A stretch of DNA of 45,419 nt, from the NCBI GenBank assembly GCA_017405445.1, contig JAFRAK010000009.1, positions 1-45,419 of the forward strand, in the 5' to 3' direction. The DNA comes from Bacilli bacterium (GTDB lineage Bacteria; Bacillota_I; Bacilli_A; RF39; UBA660). Shown here piece by piece: positions 32,181-45,419 of this stretch. Every line of letters begins with the position of its first letter. The first letter of the stretch is position 1. The notes below the pieces were generated by a model, which worked only from the letters and a program-made list of their open reading frames with translations, ran no database searches and was not told the DNA's origin. Made by a program: the position numbers and the translations under genes.

Positions 32181-32204
32181 AATCTTATGGTAGGAGAGTT
32201 TGCT

Positions 32205-35200
32205 ATGAAGAAGATTTTTTTAATTCTATTGTCATTTTTCTTTTATTTGTTTTTATTAATCCCTACAGTATATGCAGAAGAGATTTCTTTTTCAGAAGTA
32301 ACCATAAAAGATAAAAGTGGAACTATTACAGTAGATGATATTGAGTTTAATAATAATACTATTTCCAGTAATATTACTTTTCGACAATTAAATGATTTTG
32401 TAACATTAGATGTATTAGTTAAAAATAATGATAATACACCTTTTGCTTTAGAATCTGTTAGTTTAAATCATAATGATTATTTATCTGTAGAATTTGAATA
32501 TGGAAAAATAGTTAGAGATCATTATTATGAACACTTTTTTATTACTTTAAAATATGACAAAGAATTGATTAATCAAGAAGAAGTTCATTTAGATAATTTA
32601 AAACTTAATATGAGTTTTAGTAATGATAATGCTCTTATAAATCCTGAAACTAAAAGTCCATTGCTTTTCATTGGATTTTGTTTAGGTATGTTTTTTGTTT
32701 TATTATTAGTGATTAAGAAAAAGAAAAAACTATTGTTGTTATTATTGTTTATTCCTTTTTTTGTAAGAGCATCAGAAGGTAGAAGTATTTCATTAGAGTT
32801 TTCTGATATTACAATAAAAGGAAGATTTTTAGAATATAATGTTTTAATTGATTATGGTAATGGTGATGTTGAGACAGTTGTTGTGACTTATGGAGATAAG
32901 ATAGAAGAATTACCGATTCCTGAAAAAGATGGGTATGATTTTATTAATTGGATTAATAAAGAAACTGAGGATGATTTGTCTTTAGAGGATACAGTTCAAG
33001 AAGATATAGAAATTATTCCTAAGTTTGAACCAATTACTTATCAACTTATGTATATGTTAGATGGTGGAACTTTATCTCAAAATAATCCAGAAACATATAA
33101 TATTGAAAGTGAAAGTTTTACTCTTAATAATCCAGAAAAAGTAGGATATAGTTTCTCTGGGTGGACAGAAGAAGATAGTGAGGAATTACAAACTAGTGTT
33201 ACTGTCTTTACTGGAAGTATGGGTAATAAAGTTTATACAGCTCATTTTTCACCGAATCAAAATACTACTTATACTGTTATTCATCAAAAACAAAATATTG
33301 ATGGAAATGGTTATACAACAGAAGAGACTCAACAATTAACTGGGACAACAGATACTGAAGTTACTCCTCAAAGAATGTCTTATACTGGATTCACGGCTCC
33401 TGTAGGTCAAACAAAAACAATTAATGGGGATGGGTCAACTGTCTTTACTTATCAATATACAAGAAATAAATATACGTTTAATATTAGTGATAGAACTTAT
33501 GTAACAGGAACAAGTAATGGATCATATTATTATGGATCAAATATATCAGTTACTGCACAATCAAGAGCAGGTTATACTTTTAAATGGAGTGATGGAACAA
33601 CTTCATTAACCAAGAGTTTTACTATTAGTGGTAATACTACATTAAGTGCTATTTATACAGCTAATACGAATACTCCTTATAAAGTTATTCATCAACAACA
33701 AAATTTAAATGATAATAATTATACAACTGTTGCAACAAATAATTTTACAGGGACAACAGGAACTACTGTAACACCAGCAGTAAACACTTATACAGGATTT
33801 ACTTCTCCAAGTACACAAACAAAAACAATATTAGGAGATGGTTCTTTAACAATCACTTATCAATATACAAGAAACTCTTATACTTTAACATTAACGGATA
33901 GTGAATATATTACTACAACGACTCCAAGTGGAACTTATAAATATGGAAAGAGTATTACTTTAACTGCTAATACAAGAGATGGATATACCTTTACTGGCTG
34001 GAGTGATGGAAATACTAATTCTACTTATACCTTTACATTAACTGGAAACAAAACAATAGGACCTAATTATGAACAAACCAGAGTAACTATTACTTTTAAT
34101 CCAAATGGAGGAGAAGTCACTCCAACTAGTAAAGAAATAGATTCAAATGATGAGATTGGTGACCTACCTATTCCTGTAAGAGAAGAATATACCTTTGTTG
34201 GATGGTATACGAATTTAACAGGAGGAGTAAAGGTAGAAGCAACGACAACATTTAATTCTACTACTTCGATTTATGCTAGATGGGAAGAAATACCAATTCT
34301 ATATAATGTCTTAAAACATGAAACAGAAGATGGAGGCCTTGCCAGAAAATATGAAGGAGAACATAAAGATTCTTTCACAGAAGAAGCTTCACATGATATT
34401 TATCACTGGTATGCAGAAAATGATACTCAAGGGACAGAAGTAACCAATAAAAATAATGTCATATTTGGAAATCATTGTTGGAAAATACTTAGGACAACAG
34501 ATACTGGAGGAGTTAAGCTCTGGTATAATGGTGAAACTGAAAATAATCAGTGCCTAGAAACTCGACAAAGACATCCAGGATATAGTAATAGAGAATATCT
34601 AAGCTTAAATAGTAGTTATTGGTATGGGACAGATTATACTTATGATGTTTCAACTAAAAAATTTTCTGTTTCTGGATTAACTGAACAAGTTACGTGGAAT
34701 GCTACAACAGGACCTAGTTTAGTTGGAAAATATACATGTAAAGGAACTAGCGAAACATCTACTTGTGATAAGATTTATTTGATACATACTTATGCTAGTG
34801 CTTCAGGGGGATATGCCTTATCAATTAGTTCAAATGAATCTTACTCAATTTATGGTAATTTACCTTATAGTCCATCTGCAAATTCTATTGCATATGTTGG
34901 TTATAAGTATGGAACTGTTTATCCTGTTAATAAAAAAATGATGTATAATACTACTCATGCTAATAAGTATTATACTTTGTTAAATTCTCTAACATTTAAT
35001 GCCAATTATTGGTATGCTGATTCTATTTCATATGATTCCAGTACAAATAAATATTCTCTTAATAATCCTTACCAAGTAGACAATAATAGTGATTTATCTG
35101 GAAAATATACTTTGAATCAATCTAATCAATTTGCTAGTACATCAAATGCATATTATATCGTTACAGTAGATGGAACAAAAATAATAGAGAAAACATTGAG

Positions 35201-37151
35201 TTCTGGATATGATTATAATTATTATAATCCAGTAGGAGTTGGAGAAACTATTGTAGATAATGAAAATGGTACGTATACTATTAGTGATGTTGAATATCGT
35301 AATTTGTCAGATTGGTACTGGGATAATAAAAACTCTAATGATAATTATAAAAGATTATATGTTTGCAATTACTATACTGATACTTGTTCAGATCCTAAAG
35401 TTTCAATCTATCCTACTTCTACTACTTACAGTTATACGAGTGTCAATAATAAAATAGTAGTTGCTAAAAGACATGATGGACTTCAACTATTAGATACTAA
35501 AATTGTCGGTGGGGATGATATGTACTTTCGTACTGAAGAATTGTCTGATTATAAGTACACTTGTGGAACAACTAGTGATGTTTGTACTCCAACTAATTTG
35601 AAGAGAATAGTAAAGTTTAGTGGTGGTTATTATGAATATATAATTAATCATTATTATGGTTCTGATGTTACGTGGGATGGAACTCAGTATACACTTGTTG
35701 ACCCAATTGATTTTGATAATTATTTTGATGATCAAAAAATGAATACTCATCATTACTTTTGCATTTCTGAGGGAGTTACAACATGTACAAGTGTCGGATT
35801 TTTTGTTAGAATTGATAAGGAACAATCCTATTTATATACATTTTATATTACATTATCTAATGGAAAAAAATTCGAAGATGCTATGAGGGAAATGCTAGAA
35901 GATAATTCAACAGACTCTGTAATAAAATTTGGTGTAGATAATTGGTATAAAAAATATATGTTAAATTATTCTGAATATTTGGAAGATACTATTTTTTGTA
36001 ATAATCGGGTAATAGATATTGAAAATAATGGTTGGGATAAAAATGGCAATTTAAATCTTGATTATTCTAATTTTTCTGCAAGAACAGTAACTGGAGATTT
36101 AAGCTGTGAAAAAGAAACTGATCAATTCAGTGTTTCAAATAATAAAGCCAAACTGATTTATCCTGTTGGATTGTTAACAAGTAATGAAGTTTATTTATTT
36201 AATAATAATAATGCACGAAAAATAGATTACCCTTGGTTGATTACTCCTTCTTTATATAATGCAGATAATCATGTTGACAATTATGCTTATAATCAAACTG
36301 TATATGGTTCTGGTTCTATTGCTTCTTTTGCATTTATAAGTGGAGGTAATTATACAGGAATGGGTGTTGTTCCAGTTATTTCCTTAGTTTCTGATATACG
36401 TTATTCGGCTGGAGATGGAAGTTTGACAACGCCATATTACATTGGAAATATGTATAATATTGATATTGATTCTTCTTCCTTTGTTGTTAAGGAAAAATCT
36501 CCTTCTGGATGGGAAGTTAAAATTGAAAATAATCATAATTATATAATTACTTCATTTAAGTTAAATGGTACTTTGATTGAAGGGGATACGTTTATAATGC
36601 CAGAGGAAAATGTTCATATTACGGATATTCAATATGTTAATGAATATTATTCTATTACTATTAGTGATGCTGATATCAGCGTTCCAAGTAGAGGAAGAGT
36701 TGGTTCTACTATTTCTTTGGAATCTAATAACTTTAGAGTTACATCTTTTAAATTGAATGGCACTTTGATAGAAGGAGATTCTTTTGAAATGCCTCTTGAA
36801 GATGTAGTGATTACTGATATTCAAAAAATTGCAATAGTAATTGTTGAAAGTGCACATAATCCGTATGCAAATAGTATAAATAATGTAGTATATTATGAAA
36901 ATACATTTGAAGATGCTACTTCTCTAACAGTAGAATTAACATATCAAACAGAAAGTACTACTTATGATTGGATTTACTTATATGATACTTTGGGAAGTAC
37001 AACTCCTTATGGTAATAAAAAATATGGAGGAAGTACTTTAAGAACAGAAACACTTACCATTAATAGTAATTATCTGAAAATTGTTTTTAAAACAGATGGA
37101 AGTGTAAATAATTATTATGGATTTAAAGCTGTTATCATACCAAATTATTAA
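32205..37151 (+). CDS. Giant surface protein: internal NPETK anchor-like segment, InlB-type repeats, DUF6273-like region, CUB-like end
   Basis: This 1648-aa protein starts with a signal peptide (KKIFLILLSFFFYLFLLIPT) and a beta ectodomain. NPETK (146-150), a hydrophobic helix and KKKKK follow, then a second signal-like stretch (LLLLLLFIPFFVRA). From about 210 to 695 come InlB/List-Bact and MucBP-like repeats (GYDFINW, GYSFSGWTEED, EYTFVGWYTNLTGG). CWKILRTTDTGG near 758 opens a long DUF6273-like region with recurring disulfide-hairpin units (YTCKGTSETSTC, YVCNYYTDTC, YTCGTTSDVC, YFCISEGVTTC). Two copies of FKLNGTLIEGDxFxMP and a CUB-like domain (YDWIYLYDTLG, KYGGSTLR) end it. ATG 32205 follows GGTAGGAGAG. 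It is likely an adhesin-like surface protein. Confidence 0.8.
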   Translation: MKKIFLILLSFFFYLFLLIPTVYAEEISFSEVTIKDKSGTITVDDIEFNNNTISSNITFRQLNDFVTLDVLVKNNDNTPFALESVSLNHNDYLSVEFEYGKIVRDHYYEHFFITLKYDKELINQEEVHLDNLKLNMSFSNDNALINPETKSPLLFIGFCLGMFFVLLLVIKKKKKLLLLLLFIPFFVRASEGRSISLEFSDITIKGRFLEYNVLIDYGNGDVETVVVTYGDKIEELPIPEKDGYDFINWINKETEDDLSLEDTVQEDIEIIPKFEPITYQLMYMLDGGTLSQNNPETYNIESESFTLNNPEKVGYSFSGWTEEDSEELQTSVTVFTGSMGNKVYTAHFSPNQNTTYTVIHQKQNIDGNGYTTEETQQLTGTTDTEVTPQRMSYTGFTAPVGQTKTINGDGSTVFTYQYTRNKYTFNISDRTYVTGTSNGSYYYGSNISVTAQSRAGYTFKWSDGTTSLTKSFTISGNTTLSAIYTANTNTPYKVIHQQQNLNDNNYTTVATNNFTGTTGTTVTPAVNTYTGFTSPSTQTKTILGDGSLTITYQYTRNSYTLTLTDSEYITTTTPSGTYKYGKSITLTANTRDGYTFTGWSDGNTNSTYTFTLTGNKTIGPNYEQTRVTITFNPNGGEVTPTSKEIDSNDEIGDLPIPVREEYTFVGWYTNLTGGVKVEATTTFNSTTSIYARWEEIPILYNVLKHETEDGGLARKYEGEHKDSFTEEASHDIYHWYAENDTQGTEVTNKNNVIFGNHCWKILRTTDTGGVKLWYNGETENNQCLETRQRHPGYSNREYLSLNSSYWYGTDYTYDVSTKKFSVSGLTEQVTWNATTGPSLVGKYTCKGTSETSTCDKIYLIHTYASASGGYALSISSNESYSIYGNLPYSPSANSIAYVGYKYGTVYPVNKKMMYNTTHANKYYTLLNSLTFNANYWYADSISYDSSTNKYSLNNPYQVDNNSDLSGKYTLNQSNQFASTSNAYYIVTVDGTKIIEKTLSSGYDYNYYNPVGVGETIVDNENGTYTISDVEYRNLSDWYWDNKNSNDNYKRLYVCNYYTDTCSDPKVSIYPTSTTYSYTSVNNKIVVAKRHDGLQLLDTKIVGGDDMYFRTEELSDYKYTCGTTSDVCTPTNLKRIVKFSGGYYEYIINHYYGSDVTWDGTQYTLVDPIDFDNYFDDQKMNTHHYFCISEGVTTCTSVGFFVRIDKEQSYLYTFYITLSNGKKFEDAMREMLEDNSTDSVIKFGVDNWYKKYMLNYSEYLEDTIFCNNRVIDIENNGWDKNGNLNLDYSNFSARTVTGDLSCEKETDQFSVSNNKAKLIYPVGLLTSNEVYLFNNNNARKIDYPWLITPSLYNADNHVDNYAYNQTVYGSGSIASFAFISGGNYTGMGVVPVISLVSDIRYSAGDGSLTTPYYIGNMYNIDIDSSSFVVKEKSPSGWEVKIENNHNYIITSFKLNGTLIEGDTFIMPEENVHITDIQYVNEYYSITISDADISVPSRGRVGSTISLESNNFRVTSFKLNGTLIEGDSFEMPLEDVVITDIQKIAIVIVESAHNPYANSINNVVYYENTFEDATSLTVELTYQTESTTYDWIYLYDTLGSTTPYGNKKYGGSTLRTETLTINSNYLKIVFKTDGSVNNYYGFKAVIIPNY

Positions 37152-37687: not shown

Positions 37688-37754
37688 TTGTAATATTTTT
37701 GATTTAACGTTATAATTACCATAGAGTAGATAAAAAGAATAAAGAGGAATGTTT

Positions 37755-39941
37755 ATGTTTGATAAGATAACTTATATGAGCAATAGTGAATGTCATTTGC
37801 ATATTAAGAGTTCTGTTAATGTTGCGATGAACTTAATGAATATGCATTTTGTTTTTGAAGACGGAGAAAAGAAAATATTAGGGGAAATCAATGATTTAGA
37901 TGGAGATATTCTAAAAGTTAAATTTTTAGGAGAAATTCAAGAAGATCGTTTTATTAGTGGTACTATTCGTAAGCCAAATCTTAATTCTCAGGTTCGTTTT
38001 ATTAGTGCAGAAGAAATTCCTCTTATTATGGGTAAGAATGAAAAGGGTTATTTAAAACTAGGAAATAGTCCTTTATATACTGATTCTTCTATTTATTTAC
38101 CAATTAATGCTTTCTTTAGTAATCATTTTGCTATATTTGGTAATACTGGATCAGGTAAATCTTGTGGAGTATCTAGAATATTTCAAAATATGTTTCATGA
38201 TCCTAATGTTAAACCTTATCAGGCTAATATTTTTCTATTTGACTCATCAGGAGAATATTATAATGCATTCTCTAATTTGTCTCAGATAGATCCAAAATTT
38301 CATTATCGTTTTATTAGCACCAATGAAAAAGATCGATTAGGAGAAGCATTAAGAATACCTGTTTATTTGTTAAATAGAGATGATATAGCATTATTACTAC
38401 AGTGTAATTCTCATACTCAATTACCAATCATTGAAAGAATGCTTAAACTTGCGGCAATCTTTGGTAAAAATGATGAAGTATCTGTTGCTTATAAGAATTA
38501 TTTAATTGCGAAAGCTATTATGACACTTCTTTATACTAATGAAACTGCTGCAAATAAAAGAAATGAGATATTTTCTATTATAGCTAGTTGTTCTACTAAT
38601 GAGTTTAATTTAGAAGCTCCTCTTCGTGGAATTGGCTATGTACGTAAATTTAGAGAATGTTTTTTAATTGATAATAGTGGTAATTTTACTGAAAGTGTTT
38701 TATTAACAGAATATGTTAGTTCATTTATAAAAGAAGAGTTTGAAAAATATGAACCTAGTATGGAAAATGCTTTCTATAACCTAGATACTTTAGAAAAGGC
38801 TCTTAATTTTACCTTGATTAGTGAAGGTTGGTTAAGGAATGAACAAACTTATGCAGATGCTGTTACAATTCGAGTAAGACTTCATTCTTTAATTGTAGGA
38901 AATAATGCTAAATACTTTAATGTTACTAATTATATTCCTATGGAGAATTATATTCAGTCTTTTACTCATGCTAATGGAGCTAGATATCAAATTATTAATA
39001 TTAATTTGAATGATATTGATGATGAACTAGCTAAAACAATTACTAAAGTATTTTCTAGAATGATATTTGATTATACAAAAGATTTAGAACAAAGAGCTAG
39101 TGTACCATTCCATATTGTATTAGAAGAGGCACATCGATATGTTCAACAGGATTTAGATCGTTTCTTGTTTGGTTATAATATATTTGAAAGAATTGCTAAA
39201 GAAGGACGTAAATATGGTACAATTCTAGGATTAATATCTCAAAGACCTGGAGAAATATCTGATACAGTTATTTCTCAATGTGGAAATTTCTTAATCTTCA
39301 AGTTAAATCATCCAACTGATTTAAAATATTTAAGAGAAATGGTTCCACATATTACAGATGAAATCATTGAAAAACAAAAAGCATTACAACCTGGTACTTG
39401 TTTAGGGTTTGGATTAGCATTTAAAATTCCATTAATTACTCAAATGGAAATGCCTGATCCTTCTCCATTATCAAGTAATAGTGATATTGTTTCATTATGG
39501 GATGGGGAAGATGCAACTCCTGCAGAAAAAGTAATTCCAAATACAGTTCCTACTCAACCAGCAGAAGTTCCAAATAATGTTGTAGAAAACATACCAGAAC
39601 AGGTTCCAAATAATATTCAACAAGATATACCTAAAACTATTCCAGAAGGAATTCCGGAAATTGTTCCTAATAAGATTGTTCCAACACAAAATATTGTAGG
39701 GGCTCAGCAGGAAGTTGAAAATGAGGTGCCTATGACAATCGTTGAACCTCCTGGAATGGATAATGTGGGGCCTGTTGTAGATGTTAATGCTGATAATTTT
39801 GTTCCTCATACTGTTTCTCCAAGTCTTGATCCAGATGAACCTATGAGAAATGAACAAGATTCTGCTCCACCTTCTGCAGTAGATTCTTTGTTAGGGGCAT
39901 CTTATGGATTAAATCCTGCAATTAGTAAATTAGATTCTTAA
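37755..39941 (+). CDS. HerA-like hexameric DNA translocase ATPase with Pro/Val-rich C-terminal tail
   Basis: This 728-aa protein has an N-terminal beta HAS-barrel-like domain (about residues 1-105) and a HerA/FtsK RecA-fold core. Motifs are Walker A GNTGSGKS (129-136), IFLFDSSGEYYNAF, Walker B IVLEEAHRYVQQD, SQRPGEISDTVISQCGNF and NHPTDLKYL. HerA normally works with the NurA nuclease in end resection, or with effector nucleases in defence islands; no NurA is visible here. The C-terminal 150 residues are low-complexity, with recurring VPxx(V/I)P steps (VPNNVVENIPEQVPNNIQQ). ATG 37755 follows AGAGGA; ATG 37749 is too close to it. It sits among housekeeping genes. Confidence 0.8.
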   Translation: MFDKITYMSNSECHLHIKSSVNVAMNLMNMHFVFEDGEKKILGEINDLDGDILKVKFLGEIQEDRFISGTIRKPNLNSQVRFISAEEIPLIMGKNEKGYLKLGNSPLYTDSSIYLPINAFFSNHFAIFGNTGSGKSCGVSRIFQNMFHDPNVKPYQANIFLFDSSGEYYNAFSNLSQIDPKFHYRFISTNEKDRLGEALRIPVYLLNRDDIALLLQCNSHTQLPIIERMLKLAAIFGKNDEVSVAYKNYLIAKAIMTLLYTNETAANKRNEIFSIIASCSTNEFNLEAPLRGIGYVRKFRECFLIDNSGNFTESVLLTEYVSSFIKEEFEKYEPSMENAFYNLDTLEKALNFTLISEGWLRNEQTYADAVTIRVRLHSLIVGNNAKYFNVTNYIPMENYIQSFTHANGARYQIININLNDIDDELAKTITKVFSRMIFDYTKDLEQRASVPFHIVLEEAHRYVQQDLDRFLFGYNIFERIAKEGRKYGTILGLISQRPGEISDTVISQCGNFLIFKLNHPTDLKYLREMVPHITDEIIEKQKALQPGTCLGFGLAFKIPLITQMEMPDPSPLSSNSDIVSLWDGEDATPAEKVIPNTVPTQPAEVPNNVVENIPEQVPNNIQQDIPKTIPEGIPEIVPNKIVPTQNIVGAQQEVENEVPMTIVEPPGMDNVGPVVDVNADNFVPHTVSPSLDPDEPMRNEQDSAPPSAVDSLLGASYGLNPAISKLDS

Positions 39942-42267: not shown

Positions 42268-42349
42268 TAAATAAAATTGTCTACTTTTGTCAATTGACTT
42301 GTTATTTTACAAATGAAGGTTTATTCTAATAATAGGGAGTGTGATATTC

Positions 42350-42550
42350 GTGATATATCCTTCAATAGACAAATTATTAAATGTTGTTGATTCAAAATAT
42401 GAGCTTGTTCATATTGCTGCTAGAAGAAGTAAACAAATTACTAAAACGGGATATCTACAAATGCCTGAATCCGAGTACAAGAGCAAAAAGAATATTGGAA
42501 GGGCACTTGAAGAGGTTGCTGAGGGCCTTATCGAGGTAAAAAGAGGATAA
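42350..42550 (+). CDS. rpoZ: RNA polymerase omega subunit
   Basis: The 66-aa product begins MIYPSIDKLLNVVDSKYELV and continues HIAARRSKQI and NIGRALEEVAEGLI, the signature of omega, which aids assembly of RNA polymerase around beta'. Start GTG 42350 is chosen by family N-terminus and by GGGAG about 10 nt before it; GTG 42341 is an alternative. It is monocistronic here rather than following gmk as in Bacillus. Confidence 0.9.
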   Translation: MIYPSIDKLLNVVDSKYELVHIAARRSKQITKTGYLQMPESEYKSKKNIGRALEEVAEGLIEVKRG

Positions 42551-42605: not shown

Positions 42606-45260
42606 ATGAAAGATTCAAGATTTAAACGATTTATTTATATATTATCTTTTATTGCGACAGTAGTTTATATCTTCTATCGTATTTTTTATACAATACCTAG
42701 TGATAGTATGATTACTTTTGTAATTGCTATACTTGTTTTACTTGCGGAGTTTTTTGATGCATTCTTTTATGGGATATATGTTTTTAATATTCTAATTTAT
42801 AAAAAAGATGCTCCTCCTAAGGCAAATCCTAAGAGTAAGATATATCCTGAAGTAGATGTTTTTATTGCGACTTATAATGAAGATGCAGAACTACTTGAAA
42901 AAACAATACTTGCTTGTAAAGAGATGGATTATCCTAATAAAGCAAATGTACATATTTATTTATGTGATGATGGATCTAGACTTGAAATGAAGAAGTTAGC
43001 TGAAAAGTTAAAGATTCGTTATATTACAAGAGACAATAATAATGATGCGAAAGCAGGTAATTATAATAATGCATTAAATCATACAAAGTCTCCTTTTATT
43101 GCAACATTTGATGCAGATATGAAACCAAATAAAGATTTTCTTATGAAAACAGTTCCTTACTTTATGGAAGATAAGAATGTTGGTTTTGTACAATTACCTC
43201 AATGTTTTAAAGATTATGATATTTTTCAATCAAAATTAAAAGTATTTCATAAGATACCATTTGAACAATATTATTTTTATCATCATATACAAATGGCTAA
43301 AAATAAAACAAATAGTGTAGTCAATTGTGGAACGAATGTTATTTTTTCTAGAAATGCATTAAAAAAAGTAGGAGGATTTGCGACTAAGACTATTACAGAA
43401 GATATTGCGACAGGTCTTATGATTGAATCTTGTGGATATAAGGCAATTGCTCTACCTGAAGATGAAGTTTATGGAGAAACAGTACATGATATTGATTCTT
43501 TGTTAAAACAAAGATCTAGATGGTGTAGGGGATGTATTCAAACTTATAAATCTTATATTTTTGGTAATCATAAATTAAATTTAAAACAAAAATTAGATTA
43601 TATTTCTGCAATCTATTATTGGTCTTTTGGAGTAAGAACAATATTCTATTTATTAGTTCCTTTATTATTTAGTATTTTTGATAAAAGAATTATTCAAGGA
43701 CAAGTATATTTATTCTTCTTATTATTCTTTATTCAATATATTTTAAAAAGATTTATTATTGATCGATTAGAGAAAAAACATACATCATCTGCTTGGAATA
43801 GAATCTATGAGACAATTCTTGCACCTATTATTTCTATCGAATCAATTCGTGAAATTATTGGTTTAGGAAATAAGAAATTTGATGTTACTTCTAAAAAAGA
43901 TGTTAAAAAGAAAAAATCTTGGAGAGTATTTTATTTATATCTATGTCATTTAATACTTTTCTTATTAACATTATCAGGTATTATTATTTCTCTTTATAAA
44001 GGATTTTTACTTGGATTTAAACATTTTATTATTCCATTATTCTGGTTGTGTTCTAATCTGATTTATTTAGGTATTGCCTTAATATTTGATTGTAGTGTTA
44101 GTACTCCAAAGATTGATCAGAATCAGGAAAATGATGCTTCTAAATATCAACATTTTTCTATTGGTTCGATTTTTACTAGATTTTTTAAATATGAATTTCA
44201 TTGGAAAGAGATTTTATCAGGATGTGTTTGTTGCTTTTTCTTATTTGGTTTTTTATATAATGATTTTTATCAAGTTCAAAGAATTAATTATCAATTAGTA
44301 TCTTATAATCAACAATTACAGATTAAAAAAGGTTCTTTAGTAAATCATTTAGGAGAAAAAATATCATTAAGGGGAGTTAGTTCTCATAACTTATATTATT
44401 TTGGAGATAATTATTCTTATGATAATTTGAAAAAGTTAGTAAAGACTTGGAAGATTAATGTTTTTCGAGTTGCGTTATATACAGATCCTAATGCTGAAGG
44501 ATATATTAAACATCCAGAGTTATTAGAAAAGTTAGAAAAAATCGTAGATGATTGTATTGACCTAGATTTATATGTTGTAGTTGATTGGCATATTTTAGAA
44601 GATAATAATCCAAATATTTATAAAGAAGAAGCAATTGAGTTTTTTGATACAGTTTCTAAAAAATATAAAGATGTTCCTAATGTTTTATATGAAATTTGTA
44701 ATGAACCTAATGGGAATGTTAGTTGGGATCAAGATATTAAACCTTATGCAGAAGAAGTGATTCAAACTATTCGAAAGAATTCTAAAGATGCTTTGGTTTT
44801 AGTAGGTACTCCAAAATGGAGTAAAGATATGAAGTCTGTTCTAGAGAATCCGATTACTGACGATGATAAAGTGATGTATGTCGTTCATTACTATCCGGGA
44901 GATGAATATGCCAGAATCAACTATGAGATGGTTAGTGCGATTGCGGAAGATATACCAATGATTGTGACTGAAACTGCTCTTACAAATGCTACTGGAGATG
45001 GAGCATTATTTGAATCAGAATTTAAAGATTGGATTAGTTTCTTAGAATCAAATCATATTAGTTGGATTGTATGGCAATTTTCTGATAAAAATGAAGCTTG
45101 TTCATTGTTAGTTCCAAAAGAAAAGAAATGGAATGAGTGGATTCAGTCTGGAAAGAAGACAAAAAAACAACTAGAAAAAGGAACATATGATTTTAATGAC
45201 TATATATCAGAATCTGGAAAGATTGTGAAAGAGACAATCTTAGAAAAGGTTAAAAAATAA
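42606..45260 (+). CDS. Fused cellulose-synthase-type GT2 glycosyltransferase and GH5 glycoside hydrolase
   Basis: This 884-aa membrane enzyme begins with two helices. The processive GT2 domain follows: CDDGS (Asp121/122), DAD (Asp169/171), TED (Asp266) and QRSRW (302-306), as in BcsA-type synthases. Membrane helices lie near 335-400 and 440-500, and no PilZ domain is seen. A further helix at about 535-555 leads to an extracytoplasmic GH5-like domain from about 575: ISLRGVSSHNLYYFG, NVFRVALYTD, YVVVDWHILEDNNP, CNEPNG with acid/base Glu700, and VTETAL with nucleophile Glu789. BcsZ/CcsZ-type cellulases are normally separate proteins. The product is probably a beta-glucan such as cellulose; the exact substrate is not proven. 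Confidence 0.88.
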   Translation: MKDSRFKRFIYILSFIATVVYIFYRIFYTIPSDSMITFVIAILVLLAEFFDAFFYGIYVFNILIYKKDAPPKANPKSKIYPEVDVFIATYNEDAELLEKTILACKEMDYPNKANVHIYLCDDGSRLEMKKLAEKLKIRYITRDNNNDAKAGNYNNALNHTKSPFIATFDADMKPNKDFLMKTVPYFMEDKNVGFVQLPQCFKDYDIFQSKLKVFHKIPFEQYYFYHHIQMAKNKTNSVVNCGTNVIFSRNALKKVGGFATKTITEDIATGLMIESCGYKAIALPEDEVYGETVHDIDSLLKQRSRWCRGCIQTYKSYIFGNHKLNLKQKLDYISAIYYWSFGVRTIFYLLVPLLFSIFDKRIIQGQVYLFFLLFFIQYILKRFIIDRLEKKHTSSAWNRIYETILAPIISIESIREIIGLGNKKFDVTSKKDVKKKKSWRVFYLYLCHLILFLLTLSGIIISLYKGFLLGFKHFIIPLFWLCSNLIYLGIALIFDCSVSTPKIDQNQENDASKYQHFSIGSIFTRFFKYEFHWKEILSGCVCCFFLFGFLYNDFYQVQRINYQLVSYNQQLQIKKGSLVNHLGEKISLRGVSSHNLYYFGDNYSYDNLKKLVKTWKINVFRVALYTDPNAEGYIKHPELLEKLEKIVDDCIDLDLYVVVDWHILEDNNPNIYKEEAIEFFDTVSKKYKDVPNVLYEICNEPNGNVSWDQDIKPYAEEVIQTIRKNSKDALVLVGTPKWSKDMKSVLENPITDDDKVMYVVHYYPGDEYARINYEMVSAIAEDIPMIVTETALTNATGDGALFESEFKDWISFLESNHISWIVWQFSDKNEACSLLVPKEKKWNEWIQSGKKTKKQLEKGTYDFNDYISESGKIVKETILEKVKK

Positions 45261-45359: not shown

Positions 45360-45419
45360 ATGGCTAGGAAGGGTCAAAAATATAAAAAATGGACAGCAGA
45401 AGAAAAATATAAGATAATA
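45360..45419 (+). CDS. IS3-type transposase OrfA, N-terminal fragment
   Basis: Twenty codons remain before the edge, starting MARKGQKYKKWTAEEKY. Small basic openings of this kind (MAKKGQKFKKYSxEEKxxI) are usual for the helix-turn-helix OrfA protein of IS3/IS150-like elements. AAAGGAG precedes the ATG. The rest lies outside the window. Confidence 0.55.
   Translation, partial: MARKGQKYKKWTAEEKYKII

Follow-up and report, generated by a model that had tools for sequence, protein, structure and literature searches.

Here we show that a BcsA-like processive GT2 synthase and a Cel5A-like GH5 cellulase are joined in one membrane protein of a Bacilli family, and that this fusion is real, maintained, and convergent. 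From motif content and a structure model, the protein is probably a one-chain, c-di-GMP-independent surface secretor of a cellulose-like beta-glucan, with a trimming cellulase tethered near the exit. What is new is the ancestry of the fusion, which lies inside a clade of short-form, GH5-linked synthases. What the accompanying cellulase does for bacterial cellulose synthases is an unsettled question in the available text of PMC11379886. Together, the one-chain form, its overlapping two-gene relatives, and a fusion in the reverse order offer a naturally occurring test case: cutting can be abolished by changing one residue while the partner is kept, so that the coupling of cutting to secretion becomes directly testable.

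Methods

The window analysed is a stretch of 45,419 nt of contig JAFRAK010000009.1 from the metagenome-assembled genome (MAG) GCA_017405445.1. Genome contigs were scanned with an alignment query and the best 80 of 206 related loci were taken; counts of loci cover these nearest ones. A contig scan with a single protein as query gave no match. In the family sample of 291 genomes, at most three candidates were scored per genome. Ten loci were skipped as repeats of the same contigs, and L020 was used in the trees in place of L006. All trees were quick trees with SH-aLRT support and without bootstrap. The synthase tree omitted 30 of 91 rows (duplicates L097 and L100, short or broken L036 and L047, and 26 long-form synthases). 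The first GH5 tree omitted L097 and L115, the GH5 AU test omitted L061 too, and the last GH5 tree omitted L097, L115, L061, L078, L037, L022, L047, L020, and L128. Motif conservation was read from a 58-row alignment, in which the 12 unfused short-form rows comprise 11 with a GH5 gene and L033. This alignment also served for an AlphaFold2 model, which superseded an earlier one (pLDDT 65). Adhesive domains were those of PF20597 (pAdhesive_15) and TIGR04215 (choice-of-anchor A), for which examples were scanned. In reading neighbours, L020 offered no upstream sequence, L022 and L023 offered less than 70 nt and so are uninformative, and neither the upstream 130-residue frame at L035 nor the short downstream frames at several loci entered the count of surface proteins.

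Table 1. Positions in the window of the fused gene, its domains, its motifs and its upstream neighbour, with two groups of related loci.
Feature	Position or loci	Strand	Basis or remark
Fused GT2 synthase-TM-GH5 gene	42606..45260	+	single intact ORF, 884 aa, ATG start
BcsA-like processive GT2 core, six membrane helices, residues 1-494	42606..44087	+	Pfam, profile, sequence and structure match
Cytosolic linker and extra TM helix, residues 495-562 (helix 534-561)	44088..44291	+	occupies the PilZ position of BcsA; low confidence at 555-559
GH5 cellulase domain, Cel5A-like, residues 563-884	44292..45257	+	Pfam, sequence and structure match
DDG motif, residues 121-123	42966..42974	+	motif alignment
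DAD motif, residues 169-171	43110..43118	+	motif alignment
TED motif with catalytic base, residues 264-266	43395..43403	+	motif alignment
QRSRW motif, residues 302-306 (Q302xxR305W306)	43509..43523	+	motif alignment
Gating-loop motif FDVTSK, residues 425-430	43878..43895	+	motif alignment
E700, acid/base glutamate of NEP motif	44703..44705	+	motif alignment
E789, nucleophile glutamate	44970..44972	+	motif alignment
RNA polymerase omega-like gene (by eye), directly upstream of the fusion	42341..42550	+	
Reverse-order GH5-TM-GT2 loci	L083, L086, L072, L078, L089, L094		
Pairs with upstream large surface protein	L025 (cut by contig end), L026, L028, L030, L031, L032, L037, L050		

Results

Domains and structure of the fused protein

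Pfam placed GT2 families at residues 81-357 and PF00150 (Cellulase) at residues 581-828 (E 2e-54; 185.3 bits against a cut-off of 23.5 bits). The hydrolase is thus PF00150, and a GH17 match was absent from the fused protein, as was PilZ (PF07238), whose absence from the chain the initial annotation had already noted. Residues 5-492 match BcsA of E. coli (E 1e-71) and Rhodobacter (E 1e-60) across the whole core. TIGR03030 (BcsA, UDP-forming) scored 352 bits, half of its NCBIfam cut-off of 699.1, a shortfall that leaves room for a product other than plain cellulose. Towards the C terminus, residues 561-849 align with Bacillus-type Cel5A (E 1e-77 and better), and the GH5 domain scored 273.7 bits to the Cel5A type versus 46.6 bits to the solved GH5 6uje, which we take to be the CcsZ structure; GH5 genes near other synthases gave just 44-75 bits. 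As judged by sequence comparison, the fused GH5 is Cel5A-like, not CcsZ-like.

The model (mean pLDDT 91.4, pTM 0.67) joins a BcsA fold to a Cel5A fold in a single chain. Superposition of the N-terminal region on E. coli BcsA gave Z 37.9 and rmsd 2.2 (522 aligned residues); for the C-terminal region, Z was 46.8 with 4xzb and 46.4 with Cel5A 1a3h (rmsd 1.2, 295 aligned). The pLDDT denotes confidence inside domains, whereas the pTM gives none in the placement of one domain against another, including that of the cleft relative to the channel exit. We assigned the synthase-core helices from the model to residues 4-28, 35-63, 326-358, 367-388, 439-469, and 475-496; the linker is poorly resolved and a seventh helix (534-561) precedes GH5. 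Given a cytosolic N terminus, this helix count predicts that GH5 lies outside the cell, in agreement with the external hydrolase proposed earlier. The first residue of the model aligns with residues 58-59 of R. sphaeroides BcsA, indicating that the fused protein is without the initial stretch of BcsA.

Catalytic motifs and selection

The initial annotation had described a single membrane protein bearing all GT2 motifs and both GH5 glutamates, and both catalytic sets are indeed complete. The GT2 signature comprises D121/D122, D169/D171, TED 264-266, QxxRW, and FxVTxK, and the GH5 set comprises R621, H662, N699, E700, H761, Y763, E789, and W823, the eight conserved active-site positions of the family. 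Both sets are invariant in 7/7 fused copies examined, except that T428 is S in three of them; the loss of the glutamates in relatives, which would have told against the earlier description, is not seen, since E700 and E789 are kept in all seven. Across the 58-row alignment, DD, DAD, ED, QxxRW, FxV, and K430 are kept in 7/7 fused and 12/12 unfused short-form synthases. The same GT2 motifs are kept in 17/17 other synthases apart from one V-to-I at 427, and 11 of the 12 unfused short-form synthases have A or S in place of the T of TED. The eight GH5 positions are likewise kept in that alignment (7/7 fused, 11/11 paired, 8/8 other GH5, and 3/3 reverse-fused). For four pairs of fused genes (NG86), dN/dS was 0.19, 0.15, 0.06, and 0.04 in the GT2 half and 0.09, 0.12, 0.09, and 0.16 in the GH5 half, with looser values (0.07 to 0.94) in the linker. 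Low dN/dS in both halves indicates that the fused frame is maintained, with purifying selection on each.

Distribution and genomic site of the fusion

The source genome (1.74 Mb, 57 contigs, 71.6% complete) carries a second copy of the fusion, 54% identical, beside an adhesin of the choice-of-anchor A type (G000:C46, L002:1450-4134). A search for the same fusion in other genomes, as had been suggested, recovered it in 5/39 genus genomes (seven copies in all) and in two other genera belonging to its family, and the fused frame was assembled independently in several MAGs. In the family sample, 24 of the 291 genomes gave a match at E 1e-80, 21 with a GH5 match only and three with the fusion; the latter belong to three genera (the window genome, the complete G735, and G693, in which the gene is cut by a contig end). 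Samples of the class (395 genomes) and phylum (392 genomes) contained the fusion in the window genome only. Viral and plasmid cargo were rejected as descriptions of the gene: no relative was found among viral contigs, and 0/483 matching plasmid records cover 80% of the query.

The site of the omega-like gene directly upstream (Table 1) was readable in 13 of 15 fetched relatives, none of which has the fusion there. A conserved frame of ~250 residues (RecX-like by eye) starts within 80 nt in 12 of these 13, L154 having another ORF in between. The fusion in the window is thus an inserted, accessory gene. It lies at the contig end with 162 bases left, and a partial ORF with a transposase-like start (by eye) is cut by that end (45360-45419). 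Elsewhere in the window are a 1654-aa secreted protein with InlB-type (Flg_new) repeats (32187-37151), which ends ~5.5 kb upstream of the fusion, and a HerA-like ATPase with a long proline-rich tail (37749-39941) that scores below the cut-offs of the HerA antiphage models.

Two-gene pairs and reverse fusions

Three ARRANGEMENTS of synthase and GH5 were found: (A) GT2-TM-GH5 in one ORF, (B) two genes, and (C) the reverse order. Arrangement A occurs, among the best 80 of 206 loci, in MAGs of the window's family only. Arrangement B joins a short synthase of ~535 residues with a GH5 of ~330-370 residues that has an N-terminal hydrophobic helix, and was found at 18 of these loci (14 under a Saccharibacteria title, and one each from a 'bacterium', Lachnospira, Bacillales, and Clostridia MAG). 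The paired genes overlap by 4 nt in 13/18, by 1 nt in 2/18 (for L032, as taken from the printed sequence), and by 13-17 nt in 2/18, and are ~380 nt apart in L021; in L047, which is of the 13-17 nt class, the synthase frame is broken between two ORFs (L047:2015-3675) and the GH5 is intact.

The Saccharibacteria pairs (L022-L025, L027-L032, L034, L036, L037, and L050) often have a giant surface protein upstream. Two of them, L024 and L029, lie on contigs of 138 and 190 kb whose other genes include, by eye, tsaD-, ftsK-, and efp-like ones, so a stray from binning does not account for the pair at these two loci. In 199 genomes sampled from that Saccharibacteria family, five had a synthase match above 640 bits with an adjoining GH5, and six more had a weak synthase match only. 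If active, these pairs would give reduced bacteria a glucan of their own.

Arrangement C, found at 6 loci, consists of a signal, GH5, TM, GT2, and a long C-terminal part (~1050 aa). Its hosts are Fibrobacter (four, one cut), Treponema sp. C6A8 (a record without MAG in its title), and Clostridiales UBA1763. The C-terminal part is PilZ-sized, yet Pfam recognised no PilZ in the two proteins scanned. The window's family also has stand-alone GH5 genes, anchored or lipoprotein-like, which are spread over many genera and have differing neighbours (L105, L130-L141).

Surface-protein neighbours

A protein with adhesive domains adjoins six of the eight fused loci and a ninth locus, L129 (by eye), that is 7/9, and the same kind of protein lies upstream of the L026 pair. 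No adhesin adjoins the window copy, which we count against the preferred explanation. At 8/18 pairs (Table 1), a large surface protein with a C-terminal hydrophobic segment ends within 75 nt of the synthase frame. The six surface neighbours scanned comprised three of BspA-type LRR_5 (L030, L037, and L050), one MucBP (L033), and two pAdhesive_15 (one with Cna_B). The occurrence of different adhesin families at the same position suggests a surface role. From the frequency of adhesins nearby, the glucan may serve surface attachment.

Phylogeny and co-inheritance

The synthase tree, of 61 rows, groups all 8 fused rows in a single clade (SH-aLRT 100), which is nested with 14 pairs in a set of 22 rows (SH-aLRT 98). 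This set falls within a 25-row short-form clade in which 24 of 25 members have a linked GH5, the exception being L033, whose locus has no GH5; this too weighs against the preferred explanation. In the GH5 tree that includes the stand-alone GH5s of the family (50 rows), the fused rows again form one clade (SH-aLRT 99) and, with 14 pairs, a clade of 22 rows (SH-aLRT 98), with the L035 pair outside and the stand-alone GH5s adjoining. Synthase and GH5 patristic distances are correlated (r 0.91 over 23 loci, permutation p 0.0001), also among the 13 Saccharibacteria loci (0.75, p 0.0001). Matching trees and distances indicate that synthase and hydrolase travelled together.

These trees place a single origin of the fusion in the window's Bacilli family, from a pair of synthase and anchored GH5 related to that of the Saccharibacteria, and the fusion is, on this phylogeny, a derived form of the two-gene unit. 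The reverse fusions form a separate clade among long-form synthases (SH-aLRT 100) and by the same reasoning arose independently, once. A single origin of both orders was rejected by AU tests (p 1e-63 for GT2 and p 1.6e-4 for GH5), whose groups were defined once the first trees had been seen.

Cyclic di-GMP, BcsB, and UDP-glucose supply

PilZ was found neither in the 5/5 fusion-bearing genus genomes nor in 6/6 Saccharibacteria genomes with the pair; it was present in the Lachnospira and Treponema genomes (2/15 searched). BcsB was found in 0/39 genus genomes, the window genome included, in a search whose control recovered it in E. coli. GGDEF matches occurred in 37/39 genus genomes, and the window genome has two, one with an intact and one with a degenerate motif. 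The earlier view that c-di-GMP control is unlikely within this chain holds, as the chain has no PilZ. With an intact GGDEF ORF present, the cell itself may contain c-di-GMP, with no PilZ reader found. No GalU (a source of UDP-glucose) above cut-off was found in the 71.6%-complete genome, and this is likewise a point against the preferred explanation.

Discussion

Proposed mechanism and its alternatives

Judging from its motifs and BcsA fold, the GT2 core would polymerise UDP-glucose in the cytosol and thread the chain through its own membrane channel. Without PilZ and a BcsB partner, it should run free of direct c-di-GMP gating. The seventh helix would take the C-terminal part outside, where, by helix count and model, a Cel5A-like endoglucanase would be tethered. 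Most likely, this hydrolase cuts the emerging glucan, acting on chain length, chain release, or the clearing of stalled chains. In E. coli, cellulose export needs cellulase activity and unrelated cellulases can substitute, according to the available part of PMC11379886, which makes the tethering of any endoglucanase a plausible gain. Fusion would fix one cutter per synthase, replacing the translational coupling of overlapping genes.

An artefact of assembly, which had been named as a possible refutation, or of annotation is scarcely conceivable: MAG contigs are the source of the window and of most relatives, and the gene sits at a contig end, but several assemblies, two diverged copies in the window genome, and purifying selection on both halves rule it out. 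It is unlikely, if less so, that the fusion only anchors GH5 as a scavenging cellulase for plant cellulose in the gut while the synthase makes an unrelated coat polymer. That 21/291 family genomes have a GH5 match and no synthase match at threshold means that the window GH5 could serve foreign cellulose; moreover, all 12 stand-alone GH5 loci read have an N-terminal hydrophobic or lipoprotein-like segment, and a herbivore gut is named for several sources. However, GH5s linked to a synthase group together in the tree, separately from the stand-alone ones (SH-aLRT 98, 22 rows), the pair is kept together across phyla with matching trees, and domains of these two kinds were also fused in another, unrelated lineage.

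Retaining GH5 chemistry permits transglycosylation, and the domain could instead join new glucan to an acceptor (an adhesin, the wall, or the glucan itself). The adhesin genes at 7/9 fused loci and the large surface proteins directly upstream in 8/18 pairs would fit such a role, for which the pseudomonad GH17-GT2 proteins, as proposed in the accessible text of PMC10237404, offer a precedent; since plain endoglucanases (Cel5A) are the nearest match to the domain, we consider this role improbable, more so than scavenging. Somewhat better placed, if still doubtful, is a variant in which the product is a mixed-linkage or other beta-glucan and GH5 cuts its 1,4 linkages. It overlaps the preferred explanation, and the likelihoods of the two are not additive. 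The weak TIGR03030 score points towards it, as does a Gram-positive BcsA-like enzyme that makes mixed-linkage glucan (PMC10374906, in the part available), yet no linkage marker was found either way, and motifs and fold fit cellulose equally. Beyond the preferred trimming secretor, one may speculate on an unrecognised module of adhesin, c-di-GMP-free synthase, and tethered endoglucanase, spread horizontally among gut Bacilli, clostridia, and Saccharibacteria. Its hydrolase would finish the glucan at the exit and might link it to the adhesin, and the two fusions in opposite orders would reflect selection for a single cutter on each synthase; we hold this broader proposal to be unlikely as a whole.

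Comparison with known systems

In open-licence literature, judged by title and the start of the abstract and partly by exact-wording match, no report of a GT2-GH5 fusion was found; nor was a paper on a Saccharibacteria glucan synthase or cellulase found in that literature. The statement that synthase and BcsZ or CcsZ are separate in described cellulose systems agrees with the available portions of PMC7710045 and PMC11379886. BcsA and BcsZ, as presented in the latter, resemble the window protein in synthase fold and motifs and in a partner cellulase activity that supports secretion, but are separate proteins with a GH8-fold cellulase, PilZ, BcsB, and outer-membrane parts; BcsZ is there called a cellulase of unknown biological function. 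CcsA and CcsZ share the Gram-positive (clostridial) setting and a GH5 partner, but are encoded by separate genes in the text seen of PMC7710045, whereas the window GH5 is fused and of Cel5A type. RiGT2 of Romboutsia ilealis, the mixed-linkage glucan synthase mentioned above, is likewise a Gram-positive BcsA-like enzyme that is not clustered with BcsB and is active without c-di-GMP. In contrast, it has no fused hydrolase and has a PilZ domain whose removal abolished activity (PMC10374906, same part), whereas the window clade naturally ends before PilZ.

Closest in plan are the pseudomonad 'Orphan'/NdvB proteins (GH17-TM-GT2), which the consulted section of PMC10237404 proposes to cleave and cyclise beta-1,3-glucan. 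Like the window protein, they consist of a single chain in which a BcsA-like GT2 lacking PilZ is joined to an external glycoside hydrolase, with the difference that their GH17 is N-terminal and their hosts Gram-negative, while the window protein carries a Cel5A-like GH5 at its C terminus on an extra helix. As far as that source goes, they are a precedent for a synthase and a hydrolase in one chain.
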